IMG/VR virus record: IMGVR_UViG_3300029908_000109
Span: 1-30,650 of that record
Direction: 5' to 3' (one strand)
Source of the DNA: a virus
DNA length: 30,650 nucleotides
A program made the translations under genes and the position numbers. The notes under the pieces are model-generated. The model did no database searches. It was not told the DNA's origin and saw nothing but the letters and a program-made list of their open reading frames with translations. Every line of letters starts with the position of its first letter. The stretch's first letter is position 1. Of this stretch, positions 2,908 to 25,338 are shown in pieces.

Positions 2908-3128
2908 TGCTTTCTAATAAGATAATTTACCATTTCACGATCATTATAATGATCCATATATTTCTTGACAGATATTTCAAAATTAGCTGAAGCCAAGTTT
3001 ACAATGTCATCAACATCTTTTTCAAGGACATTCATTAATTTTTCTTTCATACCATTTTTAAGTTCTTGAAGAAGAAGTCTCTCGAATAGACGATCTTCTT
3101 CTTCATGATTTTTTCCTGAATTAATCAT
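2904..3128 (-). CDS. Hypothetical protein, 74 aa, helical
   Basis: Starts MINSGKNHEEEDRLFERLLL. Highly charged and probably all-helical, with a possible short coiled coil (EEEDRLFERLLLQELKNGMK). The start overlaps the end of the upstream gene. No known motif; function unknown. Confidence 0.55.
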   Translation of the reverse strand: MINSGKNHEEEDRLFERLLLQELKNGMKEKLMNVLEKDVDDIVNLASANFEISVKKYMDHYNDREMVNYLIRKH

Positions 3129-3306
3129 TCTTTTCTACTCGACCCTTCATTTCAATAATAGTAATCATTCTACCATCCCAAACATGAAAGTCTTGAGTAG
3201 TATATGGTTTTACTATAGTCATAGTCTCTTTTTCACTTACTTGATCGAGAAAAATTACTTTGACTGGCCAACCGGCATGTGCATCTACTGTAACTTTTGT
3301 GGTCAT
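3121..3306 (-). CDS. Conserved-looking hypothetical protein, 61 aa
   Basis: Starts MTTKVTVDAHAGWPVKVIF. The predicted structure is short beta strands (VKVIFLDQV, ETMTIVKPY, MITIIEMKG), suggesting a small beta barrel or sandwich. ATG at 3306 is preceded by an AAGGAAA ribosome-binding site and follows the 29-residue basic ORF after 9 bases. Function unknown. Confidence 0.6.
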   Translation of the reverse strand: MTTKVTVDAHAGWPVKVIFLDQVSEKETMTIVKPYTTQDFHVWDGRMITIIEMKGRVEKND

Positions 3307-3315
3307 TTAATTTCC

Positions 3316-3405
3316 TTACTTCTTCTTGTTGCGACGAGCTTTACGCTTTGCTGAACCGACCTTACGACGGCCTTTGCGTGGACGATTCTTTGCGGGATGT
3401 GGCAT
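3316..3405 (-). CDS. Hyper-basic 29-residue peptide
   Basis: A very short frame with a start overlapping the stop of the MazG-like gene (TAATG) and its own TAA. The peptide begins MPHPAKNRPRKGRRKVGS and ends in KRKARRNKKK; 15 of 29 residues are Lys or Arg. Such composition suggests binding to nucleic acid or ribosomes, or DNA charge neutralisation like a protamine. Tight coupling on the 5' side and a normal spacing to the next gene support it being real rather than a chance frame. Confidence 0.6.
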   Translation of the reverse strand: MPHPAKNRPRKGRRKVGSAKRKARRNKKK

Positions 3406-3674
3406 TAGTTTAATCCTTTGTTAAATACTGAATTATCAAGATTTTTATAGCATACTTGATCTTCAAAGTTCTTGATTGCACCTTTAAGATCATCTAGTTC
3501 TGATAATAACCAATCGATATTAGAACGACGTTTATTAATATCTACTGTAGGATCGTATGAAAACCACCCAAATCTCATAGATTTACCTATAGCGGCTACA
3601 GACTCACCTAATTCTTCATTGAGTTTGCCGGTAGCAAAGTCAAAACCCGGTTTCATATACTTTTGATCTGTCAT
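3405..3674 (-). CDS. MazG-like nucleotide pyrophosphohydrolase-like protein
   Basis: An 89-residue protein with the two acidic motifs of the MazG/all-alpha NTP-pyrophosphohydrolase superfamily: KLNEELGESVAAIGKSMRFG (from about residue 18) and, after a loop, LLSELDDLKGAI. Together they give the ExxE and ExxD carboxylates that bind Mg2+ in the family. Relatives hydrolyse (d)NTPs or related alarmones; the substrate here is unknown. A strong purine-rich ribosome-binding site precedes ATG at 3674. A second MazG-like gene lies at 9973-10404. Confidence 0.65.
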   Translation of the reverse strand: MTDQKYMKPGFDFATGKLNEELGESVAAIGKSMRFGWFSYDPTVDINKRRSNIDWLLSELDDLKGAIKNFEDQVCYKNLDNSVFNKGLN

Positions 3675-14896: not shown

Positions 14897-14905
14897 TATT
14901 TATTA
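14897..14905 (-). promoter_or_regulatory. Late promoter variant TAATAAATA
   Basis: Minus-strand TAATAAATA overlapping the reductase stop codon, about 22 bases upstream of the glycosyltransferase ATG at 14874. Confidence 0.6.
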
Positions 14906-17629
14906 AGGGATTTCACAATTTCCAGCAACACAAGCCAATTCTTGTGCATTTGTTGTAGAATCTTCTAATTCATATTCTGTAAGCTTTGACCAGTCTACAT
15001 TTACTGGCATGACTTCGTTCAACTTATTATAATCATCTTCGGTGCATGTGGTAAATGGAGCCTGTTTATAGACGGTAGAACCTTCTTCAGCAGGCAAAAA
15101 TGAAATACCAGATACAAGATCAAAGTTCTTGTAAACCCATGCGCCGACCTCTAACCATTCACTTTCTTTGACAGAAACGGTAATAGAAGGCTTATGTTCA
15201 CAAAAATACTTCTGATATACAAGCCAAAGTTCTAGATGTTCGATTGCAGTCAAATTCTTCTTGAATACTGCATCCTTTGAAGACTTGATAGGAAACTTGA
15301 AGCATACTACATTATTTGGATCGTAAGCATCCTTTTCATATGGAAAGCCTGCATCGATCATAAATGCAGTCAATGGGTCTTTCTTATCGTTTCTTACATA
15401 ACGAACATAGAATGGAGAGTGAGCAGGATGAATTCCTGAAGACGTACCGTTCAATGCAGAAGAAGTTCCTGAAGGCTTAACACAAGTAATAGCAACAGAG
15501 GAATTAATACCTATTAATGCTGCTAGATCAATATTTGTATGAATTGAAATAGCCTTCAGATCACTTAAGAAATTATCAAGACCAGTTTCATTATAACCAT
15601 TTGTATAGATATTATCGTAAATACCTGTAAGTGATACACCTAGAAGACGTTCATCTTCACAATTTTTTTGCCATTTCTTATTGATATACTTGAAGTTTGT
15701 GAAACAAGATTGAAATGTACCTAGAATTGTGGCTAATCTAATCTTGTTTCTAATGGTTTCTGGTGTATCGTCTTCGTATATTACTACTTCGGTAAGATTA
15801 CAGAATTCATATGGACGTAGGATAATTTCAGAACAAGGATTTGTTCCAAAATTATGATTTACATCACGATATCTTACATCTTCCTTGCCATAAATCTGAC
15901 GACGAAATTCATTAGCATTTGCAATAACGTTTTTGATTGCCTGTCTAGAAATAATTCCTCTTTCACCAGACTTTGACTCATAAAGAGAAACCCATTCTCT
16001 CATGAAGACGCCAATTTCTGGCTTTTCATCATAGACGGCAGAATTGTTTGCAAGACGACGATAAGGATGCGTCATCCACCAGTTACCTGACTTGGCGTCT
16101 CTCATTCTTTCGTCGGTAAGATCAGAAAGAGAAATTAAGGCAGAACGACGAACACCACCGACAACAACAATGTCAGCAATCTTACATGCAAGATCATGTG
16201 CTTCTAGAGTTGTGATCTTTCGACCAGCAGCACGAATGAAAAGGTTCTTTGTAAATTCTAATAGGTCTACAAGAGGCTCTGGACCAGAAGAATTATGTGA
16301 AACAAATCCATTGGCAATAAAATTATGATTTGGTCCTTCCATTTCTAAATCATAAACTTCTTCTTCTCCTGCTTCTGTAATTTCAATAATTTCATCATAC
16401 ATCATATATTTACATGCATATGGATTACCAAAATAAATTCGTTTCATATCTTCTGCACGATGACATGAGATACAAAGATTTTGTAGATTATTTTCATTAT
16501 TATTCCAAGGATCGCCATCAACATGATGACATTCAAATTCCACATTTTCTAATCCACAAATTTCACAAAAAAGAACCCCTGCCTTGTATCTTTTCACTTC
16601 TAATCTTTGACGTGAAGTTGTGTCAAGACAATCATCCTTAAATTGTGAAACTCTATTACATTCTTTACAACGAATTGCTCGTCTAGAAATGTTATCACCA
16701 CAATCAATACAAATTCCAGTTTTTCTTTCTGTACTTCCATTAACAGCAATTTTATCACCAATATCAAAATCTGAAAGAAACTGATATTCTCCTAATTCAT
16801 TCATAAATCGGTGATTTTCGGTGGCCTTAATTCTGTAACCTTTAGAAGTTACTAAATTATAAGTCATACGATTACCGTTATAGATTACTGATTTTATTTT
16901 ATTTCTAAAAAATTCACCAGTATCTTCATCAAGTGAACGTAATTTCATTTGTTCAAATCGATGTGGAAAATTGATCTGAAGATCAAATAATTTTGCAAGA
17001 GTTATTTCATTATATCCTCTATCAACTTTTCGATCCTTGTAAACAATAGTATCGCCTGAAAGACAACGGCCACCCATAGTCTTTAGACGAGCACCAGCAG
17101 CACGCAACTGACTTACATCGTACTTCGGCACCTGTCCAATAAGAAGCAGGCTCATGAACTCTCTAAAGCCCTTGGCCCAACCTAGACGTGAGTCGTCGAA
17201 TATGATAATAGTTTCGGAAGGAAAAAATTCATCTGGTAATTCTGGTAAATTCTTGATATATGCTGACTCTACAGAATATCCTACACCAGTTCCAGACATA
17301 AGAATTGCCATTTCTTCATCAAAGGACTTAATATCGTCCATTGGAAGATAAGCACAATTATAGATAGCAACGTTGTTCTTTTTAGCAGCAGGGCCAGCAG
17401 TCATCAATGCACGCATAGACGGCATAATGTCATGATTTAGAACAGCAAGTTCTAATTCTGGACGATAAGGAGTAATATCAAAGTTGTTTTTTTCCTTAAG
17501 AGATTCTTCAATAAAATCGAAATATCTCTTAACAGTTTCCGGCCAGCTTTCTCTACGCTTTTCCTTTTCAATATATCTAGAATAACGACTTTTATATATA
17601 AATTGTGAATATAATGAGTCAACGAACAT
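14903..17629 (-). CDS. nrdJ: Adenosylcobalamin-dependent (class II) ribonucleotide reductase with intein
   Basis: 908 residues; about 650 after removal of a 258-residue intein. It matches monomeric RTPR-type class II reductases. YNCAY holds C92 (RTPR C119). GTNPCSE holds C599, the thiyl-radical cysteine (C408), and E601. EFCNL holds C610 (C419), with the same 11-residue spacing. ACVAGNCEIP holds C900 and C905, the exchange pair (C731/C736). It reduces ribonucleotides using coenzyme B12 and needs no oxygen. I start at ATG 17629 behind AAAGGAAAC; it overlaps the GIY-YIG stop as TAATG. The class II choice implies B12 availability in the host. Confidence 0.9.
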   Translation of the reverse strand: MFVDSLYSQFIYKSRYSRYIEKEKRRESWPETVKRYFDFIEESLKEKNNFDITPYRPELELAVLNHDIMPSMRALMTAGPAAKKNNVAIYNCAYLPMDDIKSFDEEMAILMSGTGVGYSVESAYIKNLPELPDEFFPSETIIIFDDSRLGWAKGFREFMSLLLIGQVPKYDVSQLRAAGARLKTMGGRCLSGDTIVYKDRKVDRGYNEITLAKLFDLQINFPHRFEQMKLRSLDEDTGEFFRNKIKSVIYNGNRMTYNLVTSKGYRIKATENHRFMNELGEYQFLSDFDIGDKIAVNGSTERKTGICIDCGDNISRRAIRCKECNRVSQFKDDCLDTTSRQRLEVKRYKAGVLFCEICGLENVEFECHHVDGDPWNNNENNLQNLCISCHRAEDMKRIYFGNPYACKYMMYDEIIEITEAGEEEVYDLEMEGPNHNFIANGFVSHNSSGPEPLVDLLEFTKNLFIRAAGRKITTLEAHDLACKIADIVVVGGVRRSALISLSDLTDERMRDAKSGNWWMTHPYRRLANNSAVYDEKPEIGVFMREWVSLYESKSGERGIISRQAIKNVIANANEFRRQIYGKEDVRYRDVNHNFGTNPCSEIILRPYEFCNLTEVVIYEDDTPETIRNKIRLATILGTFQSCFTNFKYINKKWQKNCEDERLLGVSLTGIYDNIYTNGYNETGLDNFLSDLKAISIHTNIDLAALIGINSSVAITCVKPSGTSSALNGTSSGIHPAHSPFYVRYVRNDKKDPLTAFMIDAGFPYEKDAYDPNNVVCFKFPIKSSKDAVFKKNLTAIEHLELWLVYQKYFCEHKPSITVSVKESEWLEVGAWVYKNFDLVSGISFLPAEEGSTVYKQAPFTTCTEDDYNKLNEVMPVNVDWSKLTEYELEDSTTNAQELACVAGNCEIP
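16292..17065 (-). other. Intein with HNH homing endonuclease inside the reductase
   Basis: Residues 189-446 of the reductase. It starts CLSGDTIV, has the Hint TxxH block as TENHRF (about 270-275) and ends GFVSHN followed by extein Ser447, the classical Asn/Ser splice junction. Splicing gives GGR joined to SSGPEPL, an uninterrupted class II reductase motif. Two CxxC pairs (CIDCG, CKECN) precede an HNH endonuclease: CEICG, ECHHVDGDPWNNNENN, NLCISCHRAED. All splice residues (C1, block B His, terminal HN, +1 Ser) are present, so it is predicted active. Confidence 0.92.
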
Positions 17630-18219
17630 TAGTTTCCTTTCTTTAATCTTCCTACAATCCAATTTTCTAAAATAGAAGAATTATTATTAATTCTTTTTTC
17701 TTCTATTCCATTATTGATCCAAATCATATTCGAAAAAGTTTTAGAAAGTTTTATTTTATGTTCATTTGATAAAATTTTACCAATTTGAGATTCGCTAATC
17801 TTTCTTTTACATTCTTTTGATCTTGGAATACCTATTTTCTTATTTCTTATTTTTTCTTTACATTCTTCTGTCTGATTTTTTCTATGATTATTTACAATTC
17901 TTTTCTTTACTGTATTTGATACAATATATGCATTTTTACCACCTACAGTTGAATTATATCCTTCGTTAAAAGAATTATAATATAAAATCCAATACACTTC
18001 TCTTTCATCTATTAAATCATTTGAAATATTTTCTTCAATAATTTCTATATTCCAACATTTTTCATTATATTTTTTTAAAGCATTGTAAAATTTAGTATTA
18101 TAACCACTATTATAAGTAGACTTATAGATATGTGTCTTAAATCTAACATCAATAGATTTTTTTGTCTGACCTATATAAATTTTTCCGTTAATAGTATTGG
18201 TTATCTTATATATTAACAT
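17629..18219 (-). CDS. Free-standing GIY-YIG homing endonuclease
   Basis: 196 residues. The N-terminal GIY-YIG nuclease domain is IYKITNTINGKIYIGQTKK with R26 (VRFKTHI) and the downstream Glu in DEREVYWI. The middle holds NUMOD3-like repeats (RNKKIGIPRSKECKRKISES, SQIGKILSNEHK) that bind DNA. The C-terminus has WINNGIEEKRI and the NWIVGRLKKGN ending common in phage members. It lies directly upstream of the reductase and overlaps its start by TAATG. It has no ribosome-binding site of its own and is coupled to the 52-residue ORF before it. Confidence 0.9.
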   Translation of the reverse strand: MLIYKITNTINGKIYIGQTKKSIDVRFKTHIYKSTYNSGYNTKFYNALKKYNEKCWNIEIIEENISNDLIDEREVYWILYYNSFNEGYNSTVGGKNAYIVSNTVKKRIVNNHRKNQTEECKEKIRNKKIGIPRSKECKRKISESQIGKILSNEHKIKLSKTFSNMIWINNGIEEKRINNNSSILENWIVGRLKKGN

Positions 18220-22247: not shown

Positions 22248-22799
22248 TTAAATGGTCGTCTCGGAAAGATTCGAACTATCAACCTCTCCGTTCGTAGCGG
22301 AGTGCTCTGGTCCAGTTGAGCTACGAGACGTTAATTTTTTTGCATACGTATCTGTTTGACTATGGCAATTAGGACATAAAAATTGTAAGTTATCAAGACG
22401 ATTATCTCGGTTATTACCATTCTTATGATGTAACTGTATATTTAATAATTTACCATTCCAAAATGGACCTATACCACAATCTTCACATTCGTATTTTTTA
22501 ATATTTTCACTAATCAATTTATTTTTAATCGATCCATTATTTCTAGATTGATTAATTTTAAATTTAACAATATTCTTTTTCTTAGATCGAGATTTTCTTA
22601 CTAAGTCATCTTTCCAAGAATCTACAATTTTTTGAGTATGTTCTTCTGTTAACTTACGACCAGTTAAATTTTCACTAACTCTATTATTTATTTCTTTTCT
22701 TTTATTTCTAGTAGAAAAACCATTAGCACATGATCTAGAACAAAATCTTCCAGACCCATATACGCCATCATGTGGCTTACTACAATATTCACAATACAT
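22248..22799 (-). CDS. Free-standing HNH homing endonuclease overlapping tRNA-Arg
   Basis: I choose ATG 22799 (MYCEYCSKPHDGVYGSGRFC) with GGAGG five bases upstream. An N-terminal zinc finger (CEYC, FCSRSCANGF) is followed by a NUMOD3-like segment (LTGRKLTEEHTQKIVDSW), a second CxxC (YECEDCGIG) and the HNH core IQLHHKNGNNRDNRLDNLQF with LCPNCHSQTD. After TDTYAKK the frame runs on through the entire tRNA-Arg gene and stops just after its CCA, adding 28 residues of tRNA-derived tail. The start region lies in a hairpin with an embedded late promoter (22797-22843). Confidence 0.85.
   Translation of the reverse strand: MYCEYCSKPHDGVYGSGRFCSRSCANGFSTRNKRKEINNRVSENLTGRKLTEEHTQKIVDSWKDDLVRKSRSKKKNIVKFKINQSRNNGSIKNKLISENIKKYECEDCGIGPFWNGKLLNIQLHHKNGNNRDNRLDNLQFLCPNCHSQTDTYAKKLTSRSSTGPEHSATNGEVDSSNLSETTI
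22253..22330 (-). tRNA. tRNA-Arg (anticodon ACG)
   Basis: Acceptor CGTCTCG/CGAGACG with A73 and encoded CCA. D-arm GCTC/GAGC with GG in the loop. Anticodon arm CTCCG-CTACGAA-CGGAG gives ACG. T-loop TTCGAAT is canonical, with one mismatch in the T-stem. It lies entirely within the 3' end of the HNH endonuclease ORF. Confidence 0.93.
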
Positions 22800-22843
22800 T
22801 CGAACCTCCATCTTTCTTTGGAGTATTTATATAAGTTCGAATG
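22797..22843 (-). promoter_or_regulatory. RBS-masking hairpin with embedded late promoter before HNH gene
   Basis: On the minus strand CATTCGAAC (22843-22835) pairs with GTTCGAATG (22805-22797), and inside it CTCCA (22823-22819) with TGGAG (22810-22806). The 3' arms contain the GGAGG ribosome-binding site and the ATG of the HNH gene. The late promoter TATAAATA lies in the 11-base bulge between the two 5' arms, so a late transcript starts downstream of the outer 5' arm. Confidence 0.75.
22824..22831 (-). promoter_or_regulatory. T4-type late promoter TATAAATA
   Basis: Exact octamer on the minus strand, 25 bases before the HNH ATG at 22799, inside the hairpin at 22797-22843. Confidence 0.7.
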
Positions 22844-22850
22844 TTAATTC

Positions 22851-23113: not shown

Positions 23114-23206
23114 TGGCGGAGACAGTAGGATTCGAACCTACGGGAGGCTTTTTAGGCCCCCAACGGTTTAGCAAACCGCCGCTTTCGTCCACTCAGCCAT
23201 GTCTCC
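23114..23206 (-). tRNA. tRNA-Ser (anticodon GCT)
   Basis: 93 bases with a long variable arm (GGGGGCC...GCCTCC type), acceptor GGAGACA/TGTCTCC, G73 and encoded CCA. Anticodon arm GCGGT-TTGCTAA-ACCGT gives GCT. D-loop GG and T-loop TTCGAAT are canonical. Confidence 0.93.
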
Positions 23207-23215
23207 ATTATAAAA

Positions 23216-23289
23216 TGGTACTCCGAAAAGGATTCGAACCTTTGTCTAGCGATTATCGGTCGCTTGCTCTACCATTGAGCTACCAGAGT
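23216..23289 (-). tRNA. tRNA-Ile (anticodon GAT) with C33
   Basis: Acceptor ACTCTGG/TCGGAGT with G.T pairs, A73 and encoded CCA. D-arm GCTC/GAGC with GG, T-arm AAAGG-TTCGAAT-CCTTT. Anticodon arm AGCGA-CCGATAA-TCGCT gives GAT but has C where U33 is nearly universal. Confidence 0.85.
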
Positions 23290-23523: not shown

Positions 23524-24138
23524 TTATTTTCTACCTTTAATATATCCTTTATTTATCCACTCGTCAAGGCATTCTTTTTTTATTTTTTTACTATCTTGAC
23601 CATTTGTCACCCAACATGTTCCAAATTGTGAATTTTTGTTGCCTTGTTGATGTTGAATTTTTTCATAAGTCATTTTTCGTTTTTCGAAAACTTCTTTTGA
23701 AAGAGACTGTGAATTATTTTTAAAATAAATGTTCTTATGTATTCCGTTTTTATGAGCTTTTATTACGCTGGCTATAAGCCTATGATTCGGTACTCTTAGA
23801 TAGTCATTATTACGGTTTGCAGCAGCTTTTTTAGCATGTGCTTTATGGTCGCGATGTTTATTAATATAACCAAATCCACCTTGTCCACCAGAACAAAGAT
23901 TGTATGATACAATTTTATCTTCAATTACTAGTATCTTCTCGGCAAGATTCATCTTGTCTTCTGTATCATATATCTCTATAATTTCTTTAGTAAAATTTTG
24001 AATTCCGTATTTTTTGATAGCTCTCTTAAGCCATTTTCCCGAACCAAAATAACCATCATCAAGATTTTTAGTTTGATGCTTACCAATGTAAAATTTACCA
24101 TTGATATTATTTGTGATTTTATATATAGTGTAAAAAAT
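23524..24138 (-). CDS. Free-standing GIY-YIG homing endonuclease, ATT start
   Basis: A 204-residue endonuclease whose first ATG (23952) lies inside the conserved domain. The open frame upstream encodes the complete GIY-YIG start, TIYKITNNINGKFYIGKHQ, then GYFGSGKWLKRAIKKYG and the catalytic Glu in NLAEKILV. An in-frame stop lies further upstream and no ATG, GTG or TTG lies between, so translation must start at ATT 24138, 7 bases after a strong GGGAGG. The C-terminus has SYNLCSGGQGGFGYIN, WVTNGQDSKKIKKE and the WINKGYIKGRK ending of phage members. It inserts next to tRNA-Val and is masked by a hairpin (24147-24191). Confidence 0.85.
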   Translation of the reverse strand: MFYTIYKITNNINGKFYIGKHQTKNLDDGYFGSGKWLKRAIKKYGIQNFTKEIIEIYDTEDKMNLAEKILVIEDKIVSYNLCSGGQGGFGYINKHRDHKAHAKKAAANRNNDYLRVPNHRLIASVIKAHKNGIHKNIYFKNNSQSLSKEVFEKRKMTYEKIQHQQGNKNSQFGTCWVTNGQDSKKIKKECLDEWINKGYIKGRK

Positions 24139-24146
24139 TGCTAAAC

Positions 24147-24191
24147 CTCCCGTTCGATAAAAGTCTTATTATGCTATTTATCGAACGGGAG
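24147..24191 (-). promoter_or_regulatory. RBS-masking 15-bp hairpin before GIY-YIG gene
   Basis: Perfect 15-bp inverted repeat (CTCCCGTTCGATAAA, 24147-24161; complement 24177-24191) with a 15-base loop. The 3' arm on the minus strand ends in CGGGAG, part of the ribosome-binding site of the endonuclease. A late-promoter-like GATAAATA lies at the end of the 5' arm, so late transcripts would start in the loop and lack that arm. Confidence 0.8.
24175..24182 (-). promoter_or_regulatory. Late-promoter-like GATAAATA in hairpin 5' arm
   Basis: Minus-strand GATAAATA, one mismatch from the late consensus, spanning the end of the 5' hairpin arm and the first loop bases. An expected start 5-7 bases downstream falls in the loop. 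Confidence 0.45.
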
Positions 24192-24199
24192 TGCTTATG

Positions 24200-25097: not shown

Positions 25098-25313
25098 TTA
25101 AGAATTTGAATCAGTATACTTTGAAGAATTCTTATCTTTCAAAGAAATTACCTGAGGTTTTCCTCTTGCCATTATCTTCTTTTTCAGAGATAGTATAGGA
25201 TCAAAGGTATCGATAGGCCCTGTTCCTGATGTAGATGAAGATGTTCCCATAGCATTTGTAGGGGCTTCTTCTTTTAAAAATCTGTCTAAAATCTTTTTTG
25301 TAATATTATTCAT
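25098..25313 (-). CDS. Small late protein with possible capsid-targeting N-terminus, 71 aa
   Basis: Starts MNNITKKILDRFLKEEAPTN. The helix ending FLKE carries an (L/I)-x-E site like T4 gp21 prohead-protease sites. After it the protein is disordered and Ser/Gly-rich (AMGTSSSTSGTGPIDTFDP) with a basic stretch (LKKKIMARGKP). An exact late promoter (25331) and AGAGGA ribosome-binding site precede it. Inferred minor virion or head-core protein. Confidence 0.5.
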   Translation of the reverse strand: MNNITKKILDRFLKEEAPTNAMGTSSSTSGTGPIDTFDPILSLKKKIMARGKPQVISLKDKNSSKYTDSNS

Positions 25314-25330
25314 GATGTCCTCTTTTTATA

Positions 25331-25338
25331 TATTTATA
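25331..25338 (-). promoter_or_regulatory. T4-type late promoter TATAAATA
   Basis: Exact octamer on the minus strand, 18 bases upstream of the gene starting at 25313. Confidence 0.75.

Follow-up and report, generated by a model that had tools for sequence, protein, structure and literature searches.

A predicted translation-control switch in the leader of a tRNA-nested HNH endonuclease gene of an uncultured T4-like phage

Introduction

An HNH endonuclease gene in the tRNA array of an uncultured T4-like phage begins inside a hairpin that also contains an exact TATAAATA. This raises the question of whether the leader confines synthesis of the nuclease to late infection, and whether such an arrangement arose here anew or belongs to a mechanism already known. 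The hairpin/late-promoter layout has been described for I-TevI, I-TevII, I-TevIII, T4 segB and Aeh1 mobE (reviewed in PMC2988022), and the same layout occurs in the ordinary late genes e, soc and 49 (PMC3014915); the mechanism is established experimentally for I-TevI and Aeh1 mobE (PMC2988022, PMC3014915). Here the locus was analysed within its window, a stretch of 30,650 nucleotides (positions 1 to 30,650 of IMG/VR record IMGVR_UViG_3300029908_000109), and compared with its relatives in other contigs.

Results

The HNH gene and the tRNA array

The minus strand is the coding strand throughout the region, which comprises the following genes.

22248 to 22799, minus strand: free-standing HNH endonuclease, 183 aa (Pfam HNH, PHROG HNH families)
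22253 to 22330, minus strand: tRNA-Arg(acg), into which the 3' end of the HNH open reading frame extends
23114 to 23289, minus strand: tRNA-Ser(gct) and tRNA-Ile(gat), the upstream part of the tRNA array

The encoded protein matches PHROG HNH families (E-values down to 4.7e-27) and, slightly under the curated cut-off, the Pfam HNH model (E=7.6e-4). Its HNH domain contains zinc-binding Cys pairs and the conserved LHHKNGN..N..LCPNCH, while the N-terminus forms a module of four cysteines, MYCEYC..GSGRFCSRSC. Although an in-frame ATG at 22811 would give a longer open reading frame, the start was placed at 22799, because homologues begin at MxCExC.

At the other end of the gene, about 80 nt of tRNA-Arg lie within the open reading frame (22248–22330) and encode the last 27 residues of the protein; RNase P cleavage at the overlapped tRNA would presumably strip the stop codon from the nuclease mRNA. 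A shared tRNA overlap was also considered for the HNH C-terminus of an E. coli phage and was rejected, its protein similarity to the tRNA-derived tail being merely marginal. The contig fragment is abundant in mobile nuclease elements, as the ribonucleotide reductase gene (14903–17662, minus strand) has an intein with an HNH-like segment and a GIY-YIG endonuclease gene (17629–18219, minus strand) lies directly upstream of it.

Hairpin anatomy and start-dependent exposure of the ribosome-binding site

The start of the HNH gene is enclosed in a hairpin at 22797–22843, built of an outer and an inner helix.

22835 to 22843, minus strand: outer 5' arm CATTCGAAC, a T-arm-like motif in reverse orientation (fold and aligned arms in 28 family leaders)
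22834 to 22824, minus strand: bulge TTATATAAATA between the two 5' arms
22824 to 22831, minus strand: exact TATAAATA in the bulge, read as a T4-type late promoter (sequence, counts in the window)
22819 to 22823, minus strand: inner 5' arm CTCCA, pairing with TGGAG (fold)
22818 to 22811, minus strand: loop of 8 nt
22810 to 22806, minus strand: inner 3' arm TGGAG (fold)
22805 to 22797, minus strand: outer 3' arm GTTCGAATG, terminating in the start codon ATG at 22799–22797 (fold)
22797 to 22810, minus strand: whole 3' side TGGAGGTTCGAATG, containing the Shine–Dalgarno (SD) sequence GGAGG (22809–22805), the T-arm-like GTTCGAAT and the ATG
22818, minus strand: predicted late transcription start, from T4 late promoter spacing and truncated-leader folds

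The predicted folding energy of an 81-nt stretch is -16.8 kcal/mol, compared with -8.4 on average for shuffled sequences (z -3.8), and none of 200 shuffles equalled it; for the 58-nt HNH leader folded alone, z is -4.7. In an Rfam scan, tRNAs were the sole matches.

Exposure of the ribosome-binding site depends on where the RNA begins. In computed folds of RNA with its 5' end at 22849 or farther upstream, the unpaired probability is about 0.01 for GGAGG and about 0.00 for the AUG, whereas in RNA starting at 22819–22815 it rises to 0.67 and 0.79, respectively. The predicted late start, at about 22818, was placed 6 nt past the last A of TATAAATA; RNA beginning there lacks both 5' arms, and in the truncated-leader folds its ribosome-binding site is freed. 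An earlier note on this DNA had claimed that the outer and inner arms together hide the GGAGG and the ATG of the HNH gene and that an exact TATAAATA lies in the bulge between the 5' arms. Both statements hold: the two translation signals are closed in the long RNA and open in the short one, as a switch needs, and the promoter-like sequence is found at 22831–22824 on the minus strand.

The window contains 10 copies of TATAAATA, with 5.4 expected, of which 9 are on the coding strand and 1 on the other, and five copies sit 25–32 nt ahead of SD-preceded starts. Since this strand bias and this placement are those expected of a T4-type late promoter, we read the sequence as such. The contig also encodes T4-type clamp and clamp-loader proteins (gp44/gp62/gp45) as well as gp41-like and Dda-like helicases; the late sigma factor gp55 and gp33 were not seen within the 30.6-kb fragment. 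Elsewhere in the window, the open reading frame at 25098–25313 (minus strand) has TATAAATA 25 nt ahead of its ATG (25313–25338), and its SD sequence has a predicted unpaired probability of 0.00 in a long RNA and 0.85 in a short one; this is possibly another late-only gene.

A second hairpin in a GIY-YIG cassette

A comparable hairpin precedes another nuclease gene of the same array.

23524 to 24132, minus strand: GIY-YIG SegE-like endonuclease (Pfam SegE_GIY-YIG, 2.6e-7)
24146 to 24193, minus strand: hairpin of this gene with an embedded GATAAATA (fold, comparison with the relative L012)

Relatives of this gene occur in other contigs (L012–L015), with proteins 60% identical to that of the window. 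In L012, TATAAATA stands where the window hairpin has GATAAATA, and DNA similarity between the two starts directly behind a different tRNA and stops with the gene. Their stems differ by five changes in the 5' arm, all five of which are compensated (C-G to G-C, G-C to T-A, T-A to A-T, T-A to G-T and G-C to T-A).

The window gene (23524–24150) contains no ATG, GTG or TTG start, and an ATT (24132) is found at normal spacing after GGAGG. The corresponding frame of L012 (approximately 2935–3613) is without any start and has a frameshift near its end; over the 91-codon N-terminal segment the two share 88% protein identity. The gene lacking a standard start may use an AUU start or be decaying.

A large family of tRNA-nested HNH genes

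HNH relatives were searched by protein and then with a pattern covering nothing but the 3' arm and the initial codons; a third search, blind to the leader, used the N-terminal four-cysteine module alone and found at least 179 relatives in IMG/VR. Sequences of 80 loci were retrieved, and the analysis covered about 70 distinct leaders. Among 84,980 bacterial and archaeal genomes only 5 relatives were found, and among annotated phage records they occur in Prevotella Lak phages only. A tRNA gene lies within 300 nt of 61 of 71 family members, and in 23 of the 71 the 3' end overlaps the next tRNA, like that of the window gene over tRNA-Arg. The relatives adjoin many different tRNAs in unrelated contigs, as a mobile cassette in varied contexts.

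The N-terminal 46 residues (MxCENCxxxHDGSYGSGRFCSxKCARxFSTKxKRxEINxKVS in L156–L235) show much stronger conservation than the HNH domain, and no Pfam model matched the four-cysteine module in the members scanned. This module is likely the specificity (DNA-binding) part of the protein.

Conservation of the leader

Like the anatomy and the folds, the conservation of the arms was observed directly: the arm sequences TTYGAAC and GTTCRAA recur at corresponding positions in relatives from unrelated contigs. Leaders of relatives picked by protein, regardless of leader, have a mean folding z of -1.94 against -0.49 for other genes of the same contigs (p 8e-9); applied to T4 as a control, the leader detector recovers I-TevII, e and segB. 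In 28 motif-bearing leaders, partly chosen for pairing, the outer helix has a single freely varying pair; it is C-G in 10 leaders, U-A in 13 and U-G in 3, and is disrupted in the other 2. This distribution involves about 7 changes on each side on a poorly resolved tree, which leaves the covariation test underpowered. Arm pairing averages 9.16 of 11 positions and 8.82 of 11 after 5' regions are swapped between members (sd 0.09); because the swaps lower pairing only modestly, the arms represent a mostly invariant motif rather than freely covarying sequence. Three IMG/VR copies of the window locus are identical over the compared stretch and hence show no covariation within the population.

Between the arms, TATAAATA was found in 7 of the 28 leaders by script and in 8 by eye, with 0.2 expected. 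Of the tree members nearest the window, L132, L234 and L174 possess this between-arm copy and L205 does not. The hairpin recurs in both HNH and GIY-YIG relatives, but in many HNH relatives it is without TATAAATA. As an exact copy is absent from about 20 of the 28 relatives with a hairpin, not every leader of this kind would function as a promoter switch. A mostly tRNA-Cys-adjacent subgroup (L181, L187, L189, L195, L202, L214, L220, L222, L223) shares the inner stem CGCT..AGCG, exactly or in closely similar form, together with a loop resembling AAATATATATAA, perhaps the late promoter of another phage group inside the hairpin.

The T-arm-like motif and alternative readings of the leader

The 3' arm, GGTTCRAAT, is identical to the common T-arm sequence of tRNAs. 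Outside a tRNA, GTTCRA or TYGAAC is present in 61 of 69 family leaders, whereas among the control leaders 41 of 176 contain it (p 2e-21). At least 30 members have the motif without a hairpin, beside a different promoter-like stretch; in members without a clear SD sequence or hairpin it occurs once, in forward orientation, directly upstream of a promoter-like TATATAAAATAAA. Its origin as a copied piece of the neighbouring tRNA was considered and ruled out, as the base corresponding to R57 does not track the neighbour, and from the independence of this variable base it follows that the motif is maintained in its own right and is not a recent copy. These properties fit a reading in which the palindrome is primarily a DNA element: copies of the T-arm core GTTCRAAT flanking the promoter would form an autorepression operator, with the RNA hairpin as a by-product or second layer. 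In I-TevI autorepression, the operator resembles the homing site and overlaps the late promoter (PMC2988022), and by this analogy the leader motif suggests a DNA-level operator of which hairpin-bearing members would use two copies. A 2026 study of SegB, a nuclease of the tRNA region in the T4 group, placed its cleavage sites inside tRNA genes, with the motif RAWTSGAAC (PMC13096335). This is the T-arm sequence of the HNH leaders read on the other strand, and the motif lies in the T-arms of four window tRNAs (22268, 23129, 23231, 24212). However, SegB is a GIY-YIG and not an HNH enzyme, the leader of T4 segB itself is without the T-arm motif, the R/Y pair of the arms shows the covariation to be expected from RNA pairing, and the T-arm core is a short, common sequence. 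We therefore regard a primarily DNA-level function as possible, yet rather doubtful. Similarly tentative is the broader proposal that this HNH family, specialised to tRNA arrays, may recognise the core GTTCRAAT, which almost every tRNA gene has, so that the leader copies on either side of the promoter would serve as an autorepression operator and, in phages with SD-preceded starts, also as the arms of a translation-delaying hairpin.

The position in a tRNA array might instead point to an element of tRNA-operon processing or stability, such as a 3' trailer structure or an RNase site, and many relatives indeed have their hairpins 36–70 nt behind a tRNA 3' end. In this phage, however, the upstream tRNA is about 270 nt away with another open reading frame between, an intact gene has its SD sequence and its start codon inside the hairpin, no U-tract is present, and across the family the hairpin tracks the nuclease gene rather than any given tRNA, all of which makes such a role very improbable. 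Least credible of all is that the palindrome arose by chance in AT-rich DNA and that its TATAAATA is a coincidence. About five copies of the latter are expected in the window by chance, but the folding statistics given above and the recurrence of the same layout in diverged relatives contradict this explanation.

Discussion

Most probably the leader is a translation-control switch that allows a mobile HNH homing endonuclease gene, free-standing and inserted among phage tRNA genes, to be translated only late in infection. RNA initiated upstream, from the tRNA operon and before late transcription, would include both 5' arms and fold, so that the read-through transcript would hide the SD sequence and the AUG and little endonuclease would be made. 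Once the late sigma system of the phage is active, RNA polymerase would initiate at TATAAATA within the hairpin, at about 22818, and the resulting RNA, deprived of both 5' arms, could not fold and would be translated. The leader belongs to the mobile cassette and travels with it. Early read-through transcription, the late start site, the translational block and homing activity are all drawn here from work on T4.

Comparison with known systems places this arrangement on familiar ground. T4 segB is likewise a free-standing homing endonuclease gene in a tRNA array, between tRNA-Arg and tRNA-Ile; its hairpin starts near a tRNA 3' end, includes the late promoter CATAAATA within its 5' arm and sequesters the ribosome-binding site and AUG (PMC2988022). 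Our control fold of the T4 leader reproduced the position of CATAAATA in the 5' arm, directly behind tRNA-Ile. In contrast to the window gene, segB belongs to the GIY-YIG family, and the sequence of its arms is unrelated. Aeh1 mobE, compared by description, is a free-standing HNH gene with a late promoter and a hairpin shown experimentally to sequester the ribosome-binding site (PMC2988022, PMC3014915), but it is inserted in a ribonucleotide reductase gene rather than among tRNA genes. The leaders of I-TevI, I-TevII and I-TevIII also combine a sequestering hairpin with a promoter placed so that the late RNA cannot fold; these genes differ in being intron-encoded, and the delay there also protects intron splicing (PMC3014915). 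The same promoter-in-hairpin logic is found in T4 e, soc and 49, which are neither homing-type endonucleases nor mobile.

The earlier note had also drawn attention to the hairpin at 24147, arguing that it is unrelated in sequence and guards a nuclease of a different family, and had seen in the shared architecture convergent selection to delay endonuclease synthesis. The premises are correct. The nucleases are HNH and GIY-YIG, respectively, both with the promoter-in-hairpin layout, and the possibility that the two hairpins are one repeat is ruled out, as they have in common merely the hexamer GTTCGA, which is absent from L012. Convergence in this phage does not follow, since GIY-YIG and HNH genes with this layout had been described before, as had several ordinary late genes, and each hairpin was inherited with its cassette, as HNH relatives share the arms and the GIY-YIG cassette recurs behind another tRNA. 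The predicted switch in this uncultured T4-like phage accordingly corresponds to the known T4 mechanism, and a new convergent layout is not supported. As for the delay itself, late-only translation is the natural reading, established for I-TevI and Aeh1 mobE, but it is probably not the whole story, because TATAAATA is missing from the hairpins of many HNH relatives, and many others have the arm motif but no hairpin.

What is new here is that the HNH gene belongs to a large family of nucleases nested among tRNA genes, mostly from uncultured phages, with a tRNA-like leader motif. While the switch is one further example beside the few known from T4 and Aeh1, this wider result may matter more. The family, nearly absent from cultured phages, keeps the promoter-and-hairpin leader while the promoter differs between phage groups, and retains the T-arm-like motif even without the hairpin. 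It thereby offers a direct test of how homing endonucleases pick tRNA genes, spread, rearrange phage tRNA arrays and restrain their own expression.
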